From Nitrospirota bacterium (lineage in GTDB: Bacteria; Nitrospirota; Thermodesulfovibrionia; Thermodesulfovibrionales; UBA6898), in the NCBI GenBank assembly GCA_021783515.1, contig JAJXTV010000002.1, positions 1 through 64,000 on the forward strand: a DNA stretch of 64,000 nucleotides, read 5' to 3'. The position numbers were made by a program, and so were the translations under genes. Shown here piece after piece: positions 1-10,623 of the stretch. The stretch's first letter is position 1, and every line of letters begins with the position of its first letter. The notes beneath the pieces are model-generated. The model had not been told where the DNA came from. It searched no databases and worked only from the letters and a program-made list of their open reading frames with translations.

Positions 1-67
1 CGTGGGGGACTTCCTTGATGAGAGAGTATTCTACATCTTCGTCGTGAATGACCGAGATGGTTTCCAT
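1..67 (-). CDS. N-terminal fragment of a CDS running off the left edge; possibly type II secretion ATPase GspE
   Basis: Reverse complement reads METISVIHDEDVEYSLIKEVPH directly downstream of gspD in the same orientation; identity inferred from gspC-D-E order only. Confidence 0.4.
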   Translation of the reverse strand, partial: METISVIHDEDVEYSLIKEVPH

Positions 68-72
68 CGCTC

Positions 73-2310
73 CTACTGCATCTTTATCATATAATTGGGC
101 TCGGCGTACTGGACTTCCGGCAGGGCTGAGAAATCCTCAACCGCCTCTTCGACGGACTGTCCTTTCCTGAGTTTCAGGCGATATACCCCGAGAGCCCGCA
201 GGTATTCCAGGACACCGGCGCCTTCTTTGCCGATGAGCTCATGGGCCTTTTCCTCCGCGACGCCGTCTTTGAACTTTACCATAACTTCGTCTTTCGCGAA
301 GCGTTTATTTGCCACTGCGAACTCCTTTGACTTGCTTTCGGTGATCTCCGCGAGACGGCCCGGCTCCTTGATGATATGAGGGTCAAGGAACACGAGGAGG
401 TTCGTCTTGGACTTCGTGACGTTCTTCGTCTTGAAGAACCAGCCGAGGATCGGGATGTCGCCGAGGACCGGCATTTTCGTGACCTGCTCCTCGTCGTTTT
501 CCTGCATCAGTCCGCCGATGACGACGATCTGGTTGTCCTTGACCACCACCGAGGTCTTGGTGGAGCGCTTGGTGATCGTCGGGCCGAGGCTGACGGTGAG
601 CGCGTCGGACTGGTTCTTCACCTGGGATATCTCCTGGTAGATGTCGAGCTTGACATGGTCGCCTTCGGTGATCTGCGGGGTTATCTTCAGGATGATGCCG
701 ACGTCCTGTCTGACGATCGAATTGACGATCCCCGAGACCGCTGCGTTGCTCCCCGAGCTGGACTGGGCGACGCCCAGCGCGGAGGTGGTCTGGCTCTGCG
801 ATATGAACGGCACGTTCTCTCCCACGAGGATTTCAGCCTCTTTGTTGTCCGAGGTGAGCAGCTGGGGAGACGAAAGGACGTTCACCGTGTCCCTGAAGTC
901 GTTCAGGCTGAACAGCGCGGCAAAACCGGGTATCTGGAGCGTCGTCTGGCTCGGCTGACCGGTGCTCGGATCGACCGACGTGATCGGCACGTTGAGGAAG
1001 TTGCCTATTCCTCCGATGCTCGCTCCCTGGAGCCCCTGCAGGATGCTCTGGAACGTTGAATTGTCGATAGTCCCGAACCCTCCTATCGCGATCGGCGATC
1101 CGCCCTGCACCGCCGTGGCGCGCCACTGGGTCCCGAGATTTCTCAGCTTGTCCATAGAGGCCTCGACGATCATCGCCTCGACGTATACCTGTCTCCTTCG
1201 CTTGTCGAGCCGCTTGATAATCTGGGAGAGGTTCTGATAATCCGCCGGAGAAGCGACCACGACGAGCGAGTTCGACGCCTTGTCCGCGGTGATCGTAATT
1301 CCGCCCGCTGCTTCGAAAGGCGTCACCGGCGCGGCGCCCGGGACGGCTGACGGCCTCGTCGAGGTCTGCATGCCCTTGATCATCCCTTCGAGCACCTTCG
1401 AAAGTTCGGTGGCGTCTGCGTTTTCGAGGAAGTAGACGTTGACCCTGCCCTGGGCCTCGGGGGCCGGGGTGTCGATAAGGGGAATGAGGGCCTTCATCGA
1501 TTCTCTGATGCTCCGGTCGCCGAAGAGGATAACGGAATTGAGCCGGGCGTCGGCGATTGCGGCGGCGCCTTCCGCCGCGGCCTGGGCGGGGACGGCCCGG
1601 GTTTTGATCTTCCCCATCCCCTCGTTGAGGATCTTCGCGACCGCATCCGCGCTCGCGTGATGCAGAGTGATGACCTCCGGCATCTCGGTCGTCGAAGGCT
1701 TGTCGATCAGAGCCGCCAGGGACAGTATCTTGTCCACGTTCGTTCCCGAGTCGATTACGAGCAGGAGATTGCCCGGCCCGAATACCGAAACGTGGCCGTC
1801 GCGGGAGACGAGCGGCTGGAAAAACCGGAGGGCGTCCTCCGCCGAAACGGAAGTGAACGAGACCAGCCGCGCGACGTAGCTCGCATTCAGCGGGGACCCC
1901 TCGGTGAGGATGCGGAGCCCCTGCTGTTTCGCCTCGGCCGAGGGTACGATCTTATACGCGTCGACGCCGGAGGGCACCACGGTAAAGCCCTTCAGGTCGA
2001 GCACGGAGGTGAAAAGGCTGAACGCCTGGTCGATCGAGAGCTTCGTGGGGGCGATGATCGTGATCTTGCCCTTCACCTTGTCATCGAAGATGAAATTCTT
2101 CCCGGTAATTTCACTGATGAACTTCGTGATGACAGGGAGGTCGACATCGACAAAATTAAACGTCACGTTGTTCGACGCTTTTGCCGGCTTTGCCTGCCCG
2201 GTTTCGGAAGCGGCGTAGCAGGCAGGGCCACAGACGGCCGATACGAGAAGCGACAATACGACGCCCGCAAGCAGCCGTCGGAAGGAAGAGGGATTCATGA
2301 AGGTTTTCAT
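73..2310 (-). CDS. gspD: Type II secretion system secretin GspD with extra C-terminal subtilase-propeptide-like domain
   Basis: 745 aa; signal peptide, N0/N1 repeats (VTFNFVDVDLPVITKFISEITGKNFIFDDKVKGKITI), secretin core (VNVLSSPQLLTSDNKEAEILVGENVPF; TNLLVFLDPHII). Confidence 0.95.
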   Translation of the reverse strand: MKTFMNPSSFRRLLAGVVLSLLVSAVCGPACYAASETGQAKPAKASNNVTFNFVDVDLPVITKFISEITGKNFIFDDKVKGKITIIAPTKLSIDQAFSLFTSVLDLKGFTVVPSGVDAYKIVPSAEAKQQGLRILTEGSPLNASYVARLVSFTSVSAEDALRFFQPLVSRDGHVSVFGPGNLLLVIDSGTNVDKILSLAALIDKPSTTEMPEVITLHHASADAVAKILNEGMGKIKTRAVPAQAAAEGAAAIADARLNSVILFGDRSIRESMKALIPLIDTPAPEAQGRVNVYFLENADATELSKVLEGMIKGMQTSTRPSAVPGAAPVTPFEAAGGITITADKASNSLVVVASPADYQNLSQIIKRLDKRRRQVYVEAMIVEASMDKLRNLGTQWRATAVQGGSPIAIGGFGTIDNSTFQSILQGLQGASIGGIGNFLNVPITSVDPSTGQPSQTTLQIPGFAALFSLNDFRDTVNVLSSPQLLTSDNKEAEILVGENVPFISQSQTTSALGVAQSSSGSNAAVSGIVNSIVRQDVGIILKITPQITEGDHVKLDIYQEISQVKNQSDALTVSLGPTITKRSTKTSVVVKDNQIVVIGGLMQENDEEQVTKMPVLGDIPILGWFFKTKNVTKSKTNLLVFLDPHIIKEPGRLAEITESKSKEFAVANKRFAKDEVMVKFKDGVAEEKAHELIGKEGAGVLEYLRALGVYRLKLRKGQSVEEAVEDFSALPEVQYAEPNYMIKMQ

Positions 2311-2379: not shown

Positions 2380-3249
2380 TCACCTGATCTGGTACGTCAT
2401 CGTCAGCGGCGAGCCGTGCCGTATGATATCGAGCTGCGCCCTGTCGATCCCTTTCAGCGAGGTGATCGCCTGGAGCGCCGTGTCCGGGGTCGACATGGTA
2501 TAGTCGTTGATCCTGAGGAGGACATCGCCATTTTGGAGCCCCAGGTTCTGGTAGATGCCGCCGGGCTTGATCTCGCGCACCAGAAAGCCCTGCTGTTTGC
2601 CGCCCACGATGTTCGGGATAAACCGTGCGTCCGTCATGAGCTGGTCGGGCCTCGCGAGAGCCTGCTGGACCTGCTGCTGGTCGATCACAAAGGAGGTGCT
2701 GCCCGTGCGCTGCCCGAGAGGCACCGGCGACGCGGCCGCCGAGCCGACGTCTTTCACCACGGCGATGTCGGTGAAGGGGAGCGTGATGTCTTTGCCGCTG
2801 GAGCGTATCACGACACTGTCTTTTTCGACCGTCCTGAGCGTCCCGAGACCGAACACGTTGTCGCCGATCCTGAAGATGTCCTGTTTCCCGGATTTGTCGG
2901 CGAATATCGCATAGCTATGTGCTCTCTGCCCGGCGATGGTGCCTATGAGGGAAAGGTCTGTCTGTGAAATCGAAGGGCCGGACGCCGTCGACAGGGGGGT
3001 CAGCTCCCCTGCGGGGAATCCGAAGGGGTTGTTCTTCATGAGCGCCTCATAGTCCCGCAGCTGATGCCGGGGCGGAGGCTGAAAGGCCTTTTCCGCTGCG
3101 CGCCCGGTCCCCTTCCGCGCGACGGCAAGAGAAAGCGCATCCCGGACAAAGAGCAGCACGGCGGTCAGCAGGAGCAGACCGGCGATGCTGTTGATCACGA
3201 CAAGAGTGCTGCGCTGCTTCAGGAAGTGGTCTGCGCCGTATAGTTTCAT
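2380..3249 (-). CDS. gspC: Type II secretion system protein GspC (inner-membrane, C-terminal PDZ domain)
   Basis: N-terminal TM, GspC homology region (LSLIGTIAGQRAHSYAIFADKSGKQDIFRIGD), PDZ (YQNLGLQNGDVLLRINDYTMSTPDTALQAI); adjacent to gspD. ORF opens at 3264; MKLYGADHF start at 3249 preferred. Confidence 0.88.
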   Translation of the reverse strand: MKLYGADHFLKQRSTLVVINSIAGLLLLTAVLLFVRDALSLAVARKGTGRAAEKAFQPPPRHQLRDYEALMKNNPFGFPAGELTPLSTASGPSISQTDLSLIGTIAGQRAHSYAIFADKSGKQDIFRIGDNVFGLGTLRTVEKDSVVIRSSGKDITLPFTDIAVVKDVGSAAASPVPLGQRTGSTSFVIDQQQVQQALARPDQLMTDARFIPNIVGGKQQGFLVREIKPGGIYQNLGLQNGDVLLRINDYTMSTPDTALQAITSLKGIDRAQLDIIRHGSPLTMTYQIR

Positions 3250-3508
3250 CGACATAAGAAACATAACAGAAATATGAAAAATTAGTCAAAACAGCCTGCC
3301 GCCGAGCGGACGATGCCGGCGGACCCCGCGAGGCGTCGCGGACCGCATGAACGCCTCGCGCCTTATTTTCTTAACTATTTTTGGCAAAAAAAATTATAAT
3401 ATGGTCCAAAAATGGGAATGGCAGGCGGCCTTCATTATTCCTGCGGCTCCCGGATTATGGTGTGAAGTCCCTGTGGATGACATAACCTTTTTGCGAAGGA
3501 GGGAGAAT

Positions 3509-5677
3509 ATGGAAAAGAGAATTCGCGTGATAGGACCGGTTCTGATGGCCCTGGTGGCCTTGGTGTCCGGCTGTGGGGGGGGAGACAGCCGTCCTTCGGG
3601 GGTTGAGAACGTCGGCTCTTCGACCTGCACGAACGTCTGCCACGCCTCGACTGTAGACATCACCGGCAATCAGATCGCGGCTGTTTGGGCAGTTACCGCC
3701 CATACTACCGACGGCAACGTCCAGTGCGAGGATTGTCACGGAGCGGGGGGGGAGCACTACGGTGTCGGGCCGATCCCGTATCCCGCTCCCGATGCGGCGC
3801 GGTGCCAGGCCTGCCACGGCAAGGCGGGGTTCAATGCGACTGCTCACGACAACCAGCATATCCCGGATGGAGTGGGAGGTCCCGACAAGTTCTTTTTCCA
3901 GGGGGACGCTCTCAACAGCGGCCAGGCTACGGTCAGAAGTCAGCCTGAATTCTTCCCTGACGGGGTGACGCCGGTGACCCATGCCCTGCATATCCAGGAA
4001 TGCTCGCGGTGCCACAACCCCAAACAAAGGTTCGAGTTCGCCTCAGGCGGCACAACCGGCGAACTGGTGACCCCCGACCCCAACAACATGCCGAATCCCG
4101 CGGTCGGCTGCGCCGGTTGTCATGACGCCCACCAGACCGAGCGGAAGGTGACGATCCCTCAGAGGACCTCGCCGGTTTCATATCCCCTTTACAGGAAATA
4201 CTTCATCGATCTGGCCACCGGCGCGCAGGTTAACCCGGGCGATCCCAAAGGACAGCGCCTGGCCGGGTTCATATTCCAGCCAAACGGCGCGGCGATGGGC
4301 GGCACAGTGTCGGGGAAAAACAACGAGCTCAACGTGGAGCGTACCTGCGGCTCGTGCCATACGAGGGGGCTGTATCAGTTCAGCCAGTTGCCGACGCACC
4401 AGGAAGACGTCTATTCACAATGGCTGAACTCCGGCCACGGCAGCAGGAACGATCCCGCGTTTGCGGAGTTTTCGGCAAATCCGCCGGCATATACCAATCC
4501 TGCCACCGGGCTGCCCTACGAAACCGGTACGCATTCTCCGTCTTATCCGATCGATATGTCCTTAAGCACGTTCGGTAAGACTGCGGACACCACCCGGAAC
4601 GCGGGTAATAATGTATATGCGTGCTTCCATTGTCACAATGGAATAGGTTCCACCGTCTGGCAGTCCGACCAGCAGGGGACGCCGCAGGCGGATGTCGTCT
4701 TCGGCGACGAACCGGTCACCTGCATCACCTGTCATTCTCCGCATTCGAATCCGACAGGGACGACACATCAGGTCCGCGTGCCGAAGAAGATGACCCAGTA
4801 CTCGGGGGCAATCACGATAAACGGCAATTTCTTCCTTGACGGCACCCCGCTTCCGCCGGTCGAGAAGACCGGCAACGGCACGATCTGCATCTTCTGCCAT
4901 CAGGGAAGGGAGAGCGGCCGGACACTCTACGCGGCGAAGCTTGCGCCGGGCGCGACGATCACCGGCAGCTTCTTCAACCCGCACTACCTCGGCACCGCGG
5001 CCATGGTTTGGGGCGTCAACGGCTATGAATACGCAGGGAAGTCATACAGCTCGAATACGGCCCACCAGGACGCGAACTGCCCCACCTGCCATATGTCTAA
5101 CCCGACTGGCGACAATCTCAACGGGGGGCATACCTGGAGGCCGAACGTGGCGACCTGCAACGTTGCCGAGTGCCACGGCGGCTCCGGTCCCATCCCCGCC
5201 GATCCGGCCTCCGAAAACGGCCCTGCAAGTCCCGATGTCGCAGGCTACAGGGCGCCTTTCGATACAAACAACTATACCGGAGAGGCCGGCGGCGCTTCTC
5301 TTTCCATCGCCGATTCGATCCGGGTGCTGCAGCAGAAGATCATCGCCCTGCTGGATGCGAAGGGGATAGTATATGACGATCTCAGCTATCCCTATTTCTT
5401 CCTTCCCGGCCTGGAGCATACGAGCGCGAACGCTTTCAAGGACTGGACGCCCGAAACGTACAAGGCGGCCTTCAATCTGGCGTACACGGTGAAGGGGCTT
5501 CCCTCAGGCGGGCAGTCACAGGCGAACGTGCCGAATTCTTCGGCAGCGGTGCATGACTATAAATATGTTATCCAGCTCCTGCTGGACAGCTATCAAGACC
5601 TTAACGGCGCCGCCCTGCCGGGCGCGTTCAGACCGGCGGGGACCAGGCCCGCGGCCGTCTACGGCCCCGGGCAGTAG
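3509..5677 (+). CDS. Multiheme c-type cytochrome lipoprotein
   Basis: RBS aaggaggg then MEKRIRVIGPVLMALVALVSGCGGG (lipobox); 9 CXXCH plus one CX3CH and one CX4CH motif by direct count. Confidence 0.9.
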   Translation: MEKRIRVIGPVLMALVALVSGCGGGDSRPSGVENVGSSTCTNVCHASTVDITGNQIAAVWAVTAHTTDGNVQCEDCHGAGGEHYGVGPIPYPAPDAARCQACHGKAGFNATAHDNQHIPDGVGGPDKFFFQGDALNSGQATVRSQPEFFPDGVTPVTHALHIQECSRCHNPKQRFEFASGGTTGELVTPDPNNMPNPAVGCAGCHDAHQTERKVTIPQRTSPVSYPLYRKYFIDLATGAQVNPGDPKGQRLAGFIFQPNGAAMGGTVSGKNNELNVERTCGSCHTRGLYQFSQLPTHQEDVYSQWLNSGHGSRNDPAFAEFSANPPAYTNPATGLPYETGTHSPSYPIDMSLSTFGKTADTTRNAGNNVYACFHCHNGIGSTVWQSDQQGTPQADVVFGDEPVTCITCHSPHSNPTGTTHQVRVPKKMTQYSGAITINGNFFLDGTPLPPVEKTGNGTICIFCHQGRESGRTLYAAKLAPGATITGSFFNPHYLGTAAMVWGVNGYEYAGKSYSSNTAHQDANCPTCHMSNPTGDNLNGGHTWRPNVATCNVAECHGGSGPIPADPASENGPASPDVAGYRAPFDTNNYTGEAGGASLSIADSIRVLQQKIIALLDAKGIVYDDLSYPYFFLPGLEHTSANAFKDWTPETYKAAFNLAYTVKGLPSGGQSQANVPNSSAAVHDYKYVIQLLLDSYQDLNGAALPGAFRPAGTRPAAVYGPGQ

Positions 5678-7528: not shown

Positions 7529-8227
7529 ATGTACAAGAAGGCCACATTATTCATCATCCTGCTCCTTGTCTGCGGTCTTGCAGTTGCGGCATGGGCCGTG
7601 ACCTCCCATAAGGAATATTCTTCGATAAAGAACATCGAGGAATGTAACGGCTGCCATGAGTCAAGCGGCGTTACGCCGAACCACGGCCCGATGTGGACCA
7701 AGGAGCACAAGCTGTACGCCAACAAGAAGCCGAACAACTGTCAGGACTGCCACCAGCAGTCTTTTTGCCTCGACTGTCACGACGGCGGCGGGATCGACGC
7801 GAACCTGAACTCGTCGCAGTCCGGCCCCGATTACATGCCGAAGTCGCACCGGACCGACTGGATGTCGATCCATCCGATAAAGGCCCAGGACGACCCGAGG
7901 TCCTGCTACCGCTGCCACGATGCGGAGCAGTTCTGCGCAAGATGTCACAGCAAGTTTCCTGCGGGGTCTCTGAATATCAAGTCGCACCTGATGCTGGGGC
8001 CTAACGGCCAGAGATATACCTTTGCGATAGGCGAGCATTCCAGGGAGGCGCGGAGGAACCTTGCGTCCTGCCAGTCCTGCCACCCCGACGGAGACGTCTG
8101 TGTCCAGTGCCATAGCAGCGGGAAGACGAGTCCTCATCCCGACGACTGGGGCAAGGTCTCCGGACGGCTCAAGGACGCCAGCGGCGGAAGGACATGCGTA
8201 AAATGCCATTTACCGGGAACATTTTAA
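7529..8227 (+). CDS. Periplasmic octaheme c-type cytochrome
   Basis: Signal peptide without lipobox; 8 CXXCH motifs (CNGCH, CQDCH, CLDCH, CYRCH, CARCH, CQSCH, CVQCH, CVKCH). Confidence 0.92.
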   Translation: MYKKATLFIILLLVCGLAVAAWAVTSHKEYSSIKNIEECNGCHESSGVTPNHGPMWTKEHKLYANKKPNNCQDCHQQSFCLDCHDGGGIDANLNSSQSGPDYMPKSHRTDWMSIHPIKAQDDPRSCYRCHDAEQFCARCHSKFPAGSLNIKSHLMLGPNGQRYTFAIGEHSREARRNLASCQSCHPDGDVCVQCHSSGKTSPHPDDWGKVSGRLKDASGGRTCVKCHLPGTF

Positions 8228-8256
8228 GAATACTCTACAAAAAGGAGGAAGGAAGT

Positions 8257-10623
8257 ATGCGTACAAGGAAGCTTAGTATCATGATGCTCTGTATGCTGTT
8301 GGCCGCCGGCCTGCTATACGGCTGCGGCTCATCCAACAAAGAGGGGTCGGCAACGGCGACGCCGGACAGCGTCGGCAATGTAGGCGATTCCGCCTGCAGG
8401 CAGTGCCACAGCTCTGTCCTGGACCCGCTCACCAACGAGGGCATAATCGCCCAGTATGACGCTACATCGCCGCACCGGAATTCGTCCCATGCGAACAACG
8501 GAAACGGCTGCGAGGCCTGCCACGGCGGCGGCGCAGAGCACTTCGGCGTGGGGCCTATCCCCTATCCTAACCCGTTTGCGGACAACGGCACCCGTTGCGC
8601 AAGCTGCCATACAGGTCCGTTTGCCACCAACGCGCCGACCAAGTTCGCCGGCTCCAAGCATGCTCAGATAGTGGTGGAGACGCCCAACCCCTGCAGGCGC
8701 TGCCATACGAATGAAGGAGCCATTCTTGGGGCTTTCAACGGCCTGACGGGCCCGAAAACATTGATGGACAATGCGTCTTATCAGGGCGCAGTGCCGGCCG
8801 CGGAGCAGTATACCCAGTTTGAGTGCGGAACCTGCCACGAACACGGAGGCGGGCTGCGCAGGGTCAATACCAGAGATGCCAACGGGAATCTCGTTGTCTG
8901 GAACCCCAGCAAGAGCAATCTTGTCAACGATCAGTTCAACCTCTGCACCGGCTGCCACGGCCTGAAGACCAATGACGGCCAGGTAATGGCCTCCGGTACC
9001 GCAGCCTCCGGCACGGCTCCTGTCGGCCATCATGAGGACGACTGGTTCAGGGTAATCGCTACTACGCACTTAAACAACAGCGACAACGAAACCAATGGTA
9101 TTACGGGCTATGTGCTTCGGACGAATACCCAGTCGCCCTGCTTCGATTGCCACGGACATGAGTGGAGGACCGAGACGAACAACAACCCGAACTCGGCATC
9201 GTACGATCCGACAAGAACTTCTATCTTCAGGGATTGGTCGATGTCGCAACATGGAGGCGGGCTGCTTCAGTCGAAGTACGACGCGGCAGGTACGTCCAGC
9301 AACTCTACGGCCCTGGTTGACACGGTTATGAATACCGCTGCCGGTGAAGCAGAGCCTTGGCAGGCCGAGGACTGGAGCGCAGCAGGTCAGCAGCCCTGCC
9401 AGAGATGCCACACCGCAACCGGCGTATCCAATTTCTTAAAGAGCCCTTCCACCTATAACCCGGCTAACAACGACTACACCCACCTCGCCGGATGGGGCGG
9501 CAGAAGCGGTACCCATACCTCCAAACAGAGGGAGATGCTCTACTGCTGGGGCTGCCACAGGAACACGAGCCAGACCAGAGATGACATCAAGGACCTTCTG
9601 TACGATCCGGGCTCGCTCCAGGCTCTCTATAATTTCCAGGGCGCGAAGGCCCAGTTCCCGAACGTCCAGGCATCCGATGTCTGTATCGCCTGCCACGGAG
9701 GCCGCGAAAGCGGTGAATCTCTGAACACTATTGCAGACTTCACGAATGCAAGTTTCAAAAACTCCCATTACTTGGCTGCCGCGGGTCTCATGTATGTGAA
9801 GATCGGCTTTACCGGCTTCACCGACCCGAACACGCCTATCGGAAGCAGCACCTACGGCAAGTCTCTCACCTCGACCGAGGACGGCGGGGCGCTTTCGAGC
9901 ACCCACCGGAAACTCGGCACGACTGGGATCAACGGCGACAGCCACAATCCGTCGGTCTTTACTCCTGGCAAGTACGATTCGAACGGCCCCTGCGTCACCT
10001 GCCATATGCAGGCTACCGGCGTGCCGACGAGGGCGACGAGCCACAGCCTTGCGATCGACATCAACGCCGCGAACGAGGTCTGCATCAACTGCCACGGCAC
10101 GGAAGTCGACACTCAGGAGCATCTGGACACCTTCCTCGAGGAGCAGTCTGCGGTCTTCCAGGATGCGATCACCCTGGCTTCTACGGTTCTGCTGAACAAG
10201 TACAACATCATGTACAATTCCGCGTCTTATCCGTACTTCTACGACCTGGCCAAGGACCCGAGCGGGGCGACGGCGGTCAAGGACTGGACCCGCGGGACTG
10301 GCGACCAGGCCTTCGGCAAGAAGCTGATGGGCGCATGCTTCAACATCAATGTGCTCAATCGTGAGCCTGCCGCATATGCGCATGCGAGGACGTATGCCCG
10401 CAGGCTGCTCTACGACACCATCGACTTCCTCGATGATGGCATAATCAACCTTTCCGCGAGCGCCACGGCAGTAGCCACTTCACCTTCAGTTTACGGCAAG
10501 GGTGCAAGCGCGTACACCGACGGCACTAGGACGCAGCTCGCCCCCGGTACCACGGACGCTATGATCTATCTGATCAACTGGAGCAGGAGCACCGGCCAGT
10601 GGATCACGCCCGAGCGTCCTTAA
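8257..10623 (+). CDS. Multiheme (12 CXXCH) c-type cytochrome lipoprotein
   Basis: RBS aaaggagga; MRTRKLSIMMLCMLLAAGLLYGCGSSN lipobox; 12 CXXCH; paralogous to the 3509-5677 product (shared GVGPIPYP). Confidence 0.92.
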   Translation: MRTRKLSIMMLCMLLAAGLLYGCGSSNKEGSATATPDSVGNVGDSACRQCHSSVLDPLTNEGIIAQYDATSPHRNSSHANNGNGCEACHGGGAEHFGVGPIPYPNPFADNGTRCASCHTGPFATNAPTKFAGSKHAQIVVETPNPCRRCHTNEGAILGAFNGLTGPKTLMDNASYQGAVPAAEQYTQFECGTCHEHGGGLRRVNTRDANGNLVVWNPSKSNLVNDQFNLCTGCHGLKTNDGQVMASGTAASGTAPVGHHEDDWFRVIATTHLNNSDNETNGITGYVLRTNTQSPCFDCHGHEWRTETNNNPNSASYDPTRTSIFRDWSMSQHGGGLLQSKYDAAGTSSNSTALVDTVMNTAAGEAEPWQAEDWSAAGQQPCQRCHTATGVSNFLKSPSTYNPANNDYTHLAGWGGRSGTHTSKQREMLYCWGCHRNTSQTRDDIKDLLYDPGSLQALYNFQGAKAQFPNVQASDVCIACHGGRESGESLNTIADFTNASFKNSHYLAAAGLMYVKIGFTGFTDPNTPIGSSTYGKSLTSTEDGGALSSTHRKLGTTGINGDSHNPSVFTPGKYDSNGPCVTCHMQATGVPTRATSHSLAIDINAANEVCINCHGTEVDTQEHLDTFLEEQSAVFQDAITLASTVLLNKYNIMYNSASYPYFYDLAKDPSGATAVKDWTRGTGDQAFGKKLMGACFNINVLNREPAAYAHARTYARRLLYDTIDFLDDGIINLSASATAVATSPSVYGKGASAYTDGTRTQLAPGTTDAMIYLINWSRSTGQWITPERP

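Follow-up and report, generated by a model that had tools for sequence, protein, structure and literature searches.

How type II secretion systems recognise their folded substrates is a long-standing question, and we know of no export signal common to these substrates. At the C-terminus of the secretin GspD, the known S-domain binds the pilotin through a short helix (PMC6532946), the described pairs being EpsD-EpsS and GspD-AspS. Prodomains of the fervidolysin and subtilisin type (PF22148; structures 1r6v, 1spb and 3cnq) are located at the N-terminus of a protease precursor. A subtilase partner can also act in trans: in the ASP-ORF2 complex of Aeromonas the chaperone inhibits the protease, its C-terminus being docked at the catalytic site (PMC5638518). 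Proteins with MYXO-CTERM tails are delivered to the cell surface through type II secretion (PMC11980579).

Here we analysed a stretch of 64,000 nucleotides of a Nitrospirota genome (the window) and find that a complete fervidolysin-type subtilase prodomain is fused to the C-terminus of its GspD. The GspD tail shares sequence family, fold and an E-P-N-Y-type end with the fervidolysin and subtilisin prosegments, but it is placed C-terminally on a secretion pore that contains no protease domain, and a folded prodomain thus stands at the secretin position of the S-domain. A docking C-terminus like that of ORF2 (3wqb) may be proposed for the tail by analogy. ORF2 of the Aeromonas sobria serine protease is, however, a separate soluble protein serving a propeptide-deficient protease, whereas the GspD prodomain is fused and the subtilases described below keep their own. 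In the literature searched, which covered few subscription papers, we found no prior description of a link between a secretin and such a prodomain.

A fervidolysin-type prodomain on GspD

The full-length GspD model TIGR02517 spans residues 51-657 with a score above its cut-off of 351.35 bits, and this equivalog match together with the order gspC-gspD-gspE identifies the protein as a type II secretin GspD (Table 1). The remainder of the operon (gspE, gspF, pseudopilins and gspL) lies on contig C27, the right end of which overlaps the left end of the window's contig by about 150 bases with one difference (window 1-150, L025, G000:C27). C27 also bears apparent CRISPR-cas genes. Beside gspC we noted large CxxCH-rich ORFs at window 3347-5677, 7529-8227 and 8194-10623, which probably encode multihaem cytochromes.

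Table 1. Features of the gsp locus, with positions in the window
Feature	Position	Strand	Evidence
gspC (294 aa), preceding gspD; its C-terminus looks PDZ-like	2380..3264	-	sequence; same gene order in relatives
gspD, type II secretin with C-terminal prodomain, 745 aa	73..2310	-	TIGR02517 517.8 bits, PF00263, PF03958, PF21305
Predicted helix joining secretin and prodomain, residues 650-667	310..363	-	AlphaFold model of residues 471-745
Fervidolysin_NPro-like prodomain, residues 660-739	~94..333	-	PF22148 61.7 bits; fold; Foldseek
E-P-N-Y motif, residues 737-740	91..102	-	ranks with the best-conserved domain positions in GspDs and subtilases; conservation biased upward for part of the rows, whose loci were picked by a motif including AEP[ND]Y
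Five-residue C-terminal tail MIKMQ, near the predicted prodomain cleavage point	76..90	-	comparison of end points
Beginning of gspE, truncated where the contig ends	1..67	-	contig-end sequence

The preliminary description had likened the end of GspD to a fervidolysin-type subtilase propeptide. The C-terminal sequence it quoted is found letter for letter in the protein, and its coordinates for the segment (73-325) are right within a few bases. The likeness itself is borne out by sequence profile, predicted fold and structure search. PF22148 aligns over positions 4-81 of 81 (E 8.6e-17), scoring nearly three times the gathering cut-off of 21 bits, and the 72-residue tail by itself reaches 58.4 bits. 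GspD contains no S8 catalytic domain and is thus not a subtilase with a propeptide acting in cis. A single-sequence phmmer search of the PDB gave no match, and a profile gave only weak matches there, to subtilisin and fervidolysin prosegments (E 0.24-0.4).

The AlphaFold model of the tail has a mean pLDDT of 85.8, with a core of about 95, and its elements follow the order beta-alpha-beta-beta-alpha-beta of the prosegment fold. The top Foldseek matches in the PDB are subtilisin and fervidolysin prosegments (3cnq_P, 1r6v, 3whi and 1spb_P; probability 1.00, E 2e-3 to 9e-3). Next come furin-PC1/3 prodomain complexes and, lower in the list, the ASP-ORF2 chaperone complex (3wqb_B); RRM domains, which have the same general fold, are also among the matches. 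In the longer model the linking helix (model residues 180-197; overall mean pLDDT only 66.5) possibly corresponds to the first helix of the S-domain.

The position at which GspD ends was compared with that of other prodomains. In 43 of 51 GspDs the terminus lies 3-10 residues past E-P-N-Y, with a mode of 5, as counted by a regular expression with three mis-hits corrected by eye. In one subtilase of the same genome (L016:7798-9621) Y124 is the last residue of the motif, and residue 132 corresponds in the alignment to residue 3 of mature deseasin MCP-01. The mature enzyme should therefore begin near residue 130, five residues after the motif, provided that the PDB chain of MCP-01 begins at the mature N-terminus. 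Judged from these alignments, GspD would end about where a cis prodomain is cut, presenting a product-like C-terminus. Stand-alone prodomain lipoproteins directly beside subtilases (L120, L146) belong to the same family, have the same end of 5-6 residues after EPNY and, like the GspD tail, are additional to a cis prodomain, but they are not fused to a secretin and are known here as loci alone. Taken with the ORF2 parallel, the end point is best read as that of a trans-acting, product-like inhibitor or docking element, a role that would be analogous to that of ORF2.

The stand-alone prodomain proteins have 105-131 residues (L120:5700-6089, L146:525-920 and L118:5070-5387), and two of them adjoin a subtilase gene. 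Two further proteins of about 205 residues (L043:2474-3103 and L042:3599-4207) have a partial C-terminal prodomain match and end in EFAERAY or VFAELAY; the L043 protein also has a weak N-terminal match to the anti-sigma-like zf-HC2.

Distribution of the fusion

A survey of GspD C-termini in relatives, suggested in the preliminary description, showed that the fusion recurs. Among 121 genomes sampled from the order, 76 encode a full-length GspD, and the prodomain is present in 64 of the 76. Names attached to relatives assign the group to the Nitrospirota class Thermodesulfovibrionia. Recurrence in dozens of independent assemblies rules out an assembly artefact or a chance resemblance. Beyond the order we used a profile of 191 positions spanning the secretin end and the tail. 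Other orders of Thermodesulfovibrionia give full-length matches (1-190 of 191); in the other Nitrospirota classes sampled, among the matches listed, the alignment stops at about position 115 and there is no fusion. A wide spread in other phyla was not found: in the phylum of a Desulfobacterales genome (G406) the fusion is present in 2 of 297 genomes, one of which is the sole carrier among five genomes of its genus, and transfer or contamination may possibly lie behind these occurrences.

In a tree of 147 prodomains, built from a short alignment and with many forks unresolved, the 66 GspD copies need only three label changes and thus form nearly one cluster, a pattern with which a single origin of the GspD prodomains would be compatible. 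The domain is absent from the GspDs of three genomes (G013, G074 and G075), the GspDs at loci L039, L064 and L065 are tail-less, and the sequence of the domain has decayed in family f3.

In some other orders further residues or a SPOR-like domain follow the GspD prodomain. In two GspDs of one such order (L199:6434-9325 and L205:5994-8585) the SPOR-like match scores 22.2 bits in L199, above the cut-off of 21, and 18.2 bits in L205, below it. One GspD frame (G035:C4:21543-23324) contains two in-frame TAG codons, and those of G357 and G379 have one TAA each.

Subtilases of the same genomes

As the preliminary description had advised, we searched the genome for subtilases with the same prodomain. 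Apart from GspD, strong PF22148 matches are confined to two subtilases, encoded on contig C23, a contig other than that of gspD. Both have a lipoprotein-type signal, the prodomain, an S8 domain and an fn3 domain, and the catalytic D, H and S motifs can be recognised by eye. Their C-termini consist of GGGGGGCSVG followed by a hydrophobic segment and a basic end. Between the two lies a myxosortase-group CPBP protease. Most subtilases examined have such a tail, with a Gly-rich Cys motif, a hydrophobic stretch and Arg or Lys at the end. In this arrangement and in the neighbouring myxosortase-group CPBP proteases they resemble the MYXO-CTERM, JDVT-CTERM and GlyGly-CTERM systems, but the tails score below the curated cut-offs of the named CTERM families, to which they were accordingly not assigned; JDVT-CTERM (NCBIfam) on L016:7798-9621 gives 12.9 bits against a cut-off of 27.

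In 11 genomes of three families, prodomain-subtilases lie in or beside the gsp operon at three different positions: flanking the operon (f11), between gspF and the pseudopilins (f4) and upstream of gspC (f2). Chance does not explain this linkage well (binomial P ~7e-9, assuming a per-genome chance of about 2% and ignoring phylogeny). Genomic context thus suggests that the subtilases are exported by this type II system.

Two unusual subtilase ORFs were also noted. In L016:10368-12995 (G000:C23) a metallo-beta-lactamase-fold hydrolase (PF12706/PF13483, residues ~212-415) is inserted within the S8 domain, and G045 and G082 have frames of comparable size (892 and 913 aa). In L032:8178-10826 (G028:C34) the prodomain, S8 and fn3 domains are followed within one ORF, in frame, by a complete pseudopilin, GspG (N_methyl 740-764, T2SSG 767-878), either as a real fusion or through a lost stop codon.

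Co-occurrence of fusion, motif and subtilases was assessed at several levels, from counts compiled by hand out of the individual searches. The fusion is associated with prodomain-subtilases across all 121 genomes (P 7e-8), an association that probably reflects whether a genome possesses the system. Within the set whose GspD is full-length, a prodomain-subtilase is present in 42/64 fused versus 5/12 unfused genomes, a difference that is not significant (P 0.19). In 17 of the 64 fused genomes a search at E<=1e-20 gave no S8 match; two of these (G007 and G023) are rated 100% complete and have an intact EPNY. An obligate pairing of the fusion with subtilases is therefore not supported. With respect to the motif, a subtilase is present in 34 of 42 genomes that kept it versus 7 of 21 that lost it (P 5e-4), a signal mostly from two families. 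In family f4 the Glu is replaced by K, R or L in each of the seven members that lack a subtilase. This pattern is suggestive of coevolution in f4, but phylogenetically independent pairs of motif loss and subtilase absence give no significance.

Proposed function of the secretin prodomain

We propose, with a probability of about 0.5, that prodomains displayed on the GspD ring act in trans, binding folded subtilase substrates at the secretin and inhibiting them for a time. The ring of this class would present copies of the prodomain in the periplasm, which would bind in trans the folded subtilases of the same type II system. The prodomain sheet would pack on the protease, and the free C-terminal strand, i.e. 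EPNY and about five residues, would fill the substrate cleft in the manner of the cleaved end of a cis prodomain. Binding may recruit the protease to the channel and hold it inactive until its departure, so that release would accompany export, and inhibition at this site would protect secretin and periplasm. Docking or inhibition of a secreted protease had already been suggested in the preliminary description. The suggestion gains from genomic context (prodomain-subtilases in the same genomes, their linkage to the gsp operon in three families, and a GspD end that coincides with the predicted cleavage point), and is weakened by the fused genomes in which no subtilase was detected.

Two further points against the trans-acting mechanism are that gspD and the subtilases are on different contigs in the window's own genome, and that in some other orders GspD continues past the prodomain. 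That the subtilases examined have a complete cis prodomain also counts against it. The cis prodomain bears as well on an improbable reading in which the GspD prodomain, instead of inhibiting or recruiting exported subtilases, assists their folding in the periplasm, since with their own prodomain a second one is unneeded for folding. Prodomains are classically folding catalysts, which speaks for such a role, as does the Aeromonas ORF2, described as both chaperone and temporary inhibitor. Prodomains are also eventually degraded by their proteases, and a ring of copies would permit counting, as expected if an exported subtilase cleaved or bound the tail to signal its passage or gate the channel; we consider this the least probable of the readings, as the short conserved end point resembles a product and not an uncut site.

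A serious rival is a structural role like that of the S-domain, given that a helix precedes the prodomain in the low-confidence model. A prodomain fold captured once may now bind a pilotin or neighbouring GspD subunits and aid assembly or placement of the secretin, with no protease partner. Its position, its retention in genomes without a detected subtilase and the near-single cluster of GspD copies are consistent with this, but most GspDs keep E-P-N-Y and the end point, which are parts of the protease-binding strand, subtilases have entered the gsp operon in three families, and the three GspDs without the domain indicate that it is dispensable for the secretin in those lineages. We regard this alternative as less probable than the trans-acting mechanism. 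Replacement of the S-domain, as raised in the preliminary description, is plausible by position, and in view of the preceding helix at most the distal pilotin-binding part would have been replaced. The decayed sequence in f3 and the few losses would also fit a functionless fusion kept by descent, which the conservation of motif and end point across a deep, class-wide divergence makes very unlikely.

If the trans-acting mechanism is true, a binding domain specific to a substrate family on the secretin would be a direct and testable recognition element, and there would be a clear route by which the cell exports a dangerous protease safely. More tentatively, the pore may throughout the class be its own protease handler. 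Its ring of prodomains would capture and silence folded periplasmic subtilases, which would confer selectivity for substrates as well as self-protection, and the recognition signal would be the active site of the protease. Should the protease partner prove wrong, the placement of a folded prodomain where the S-domain otherwise sits still represents a new, class-conserved secretin architecture.
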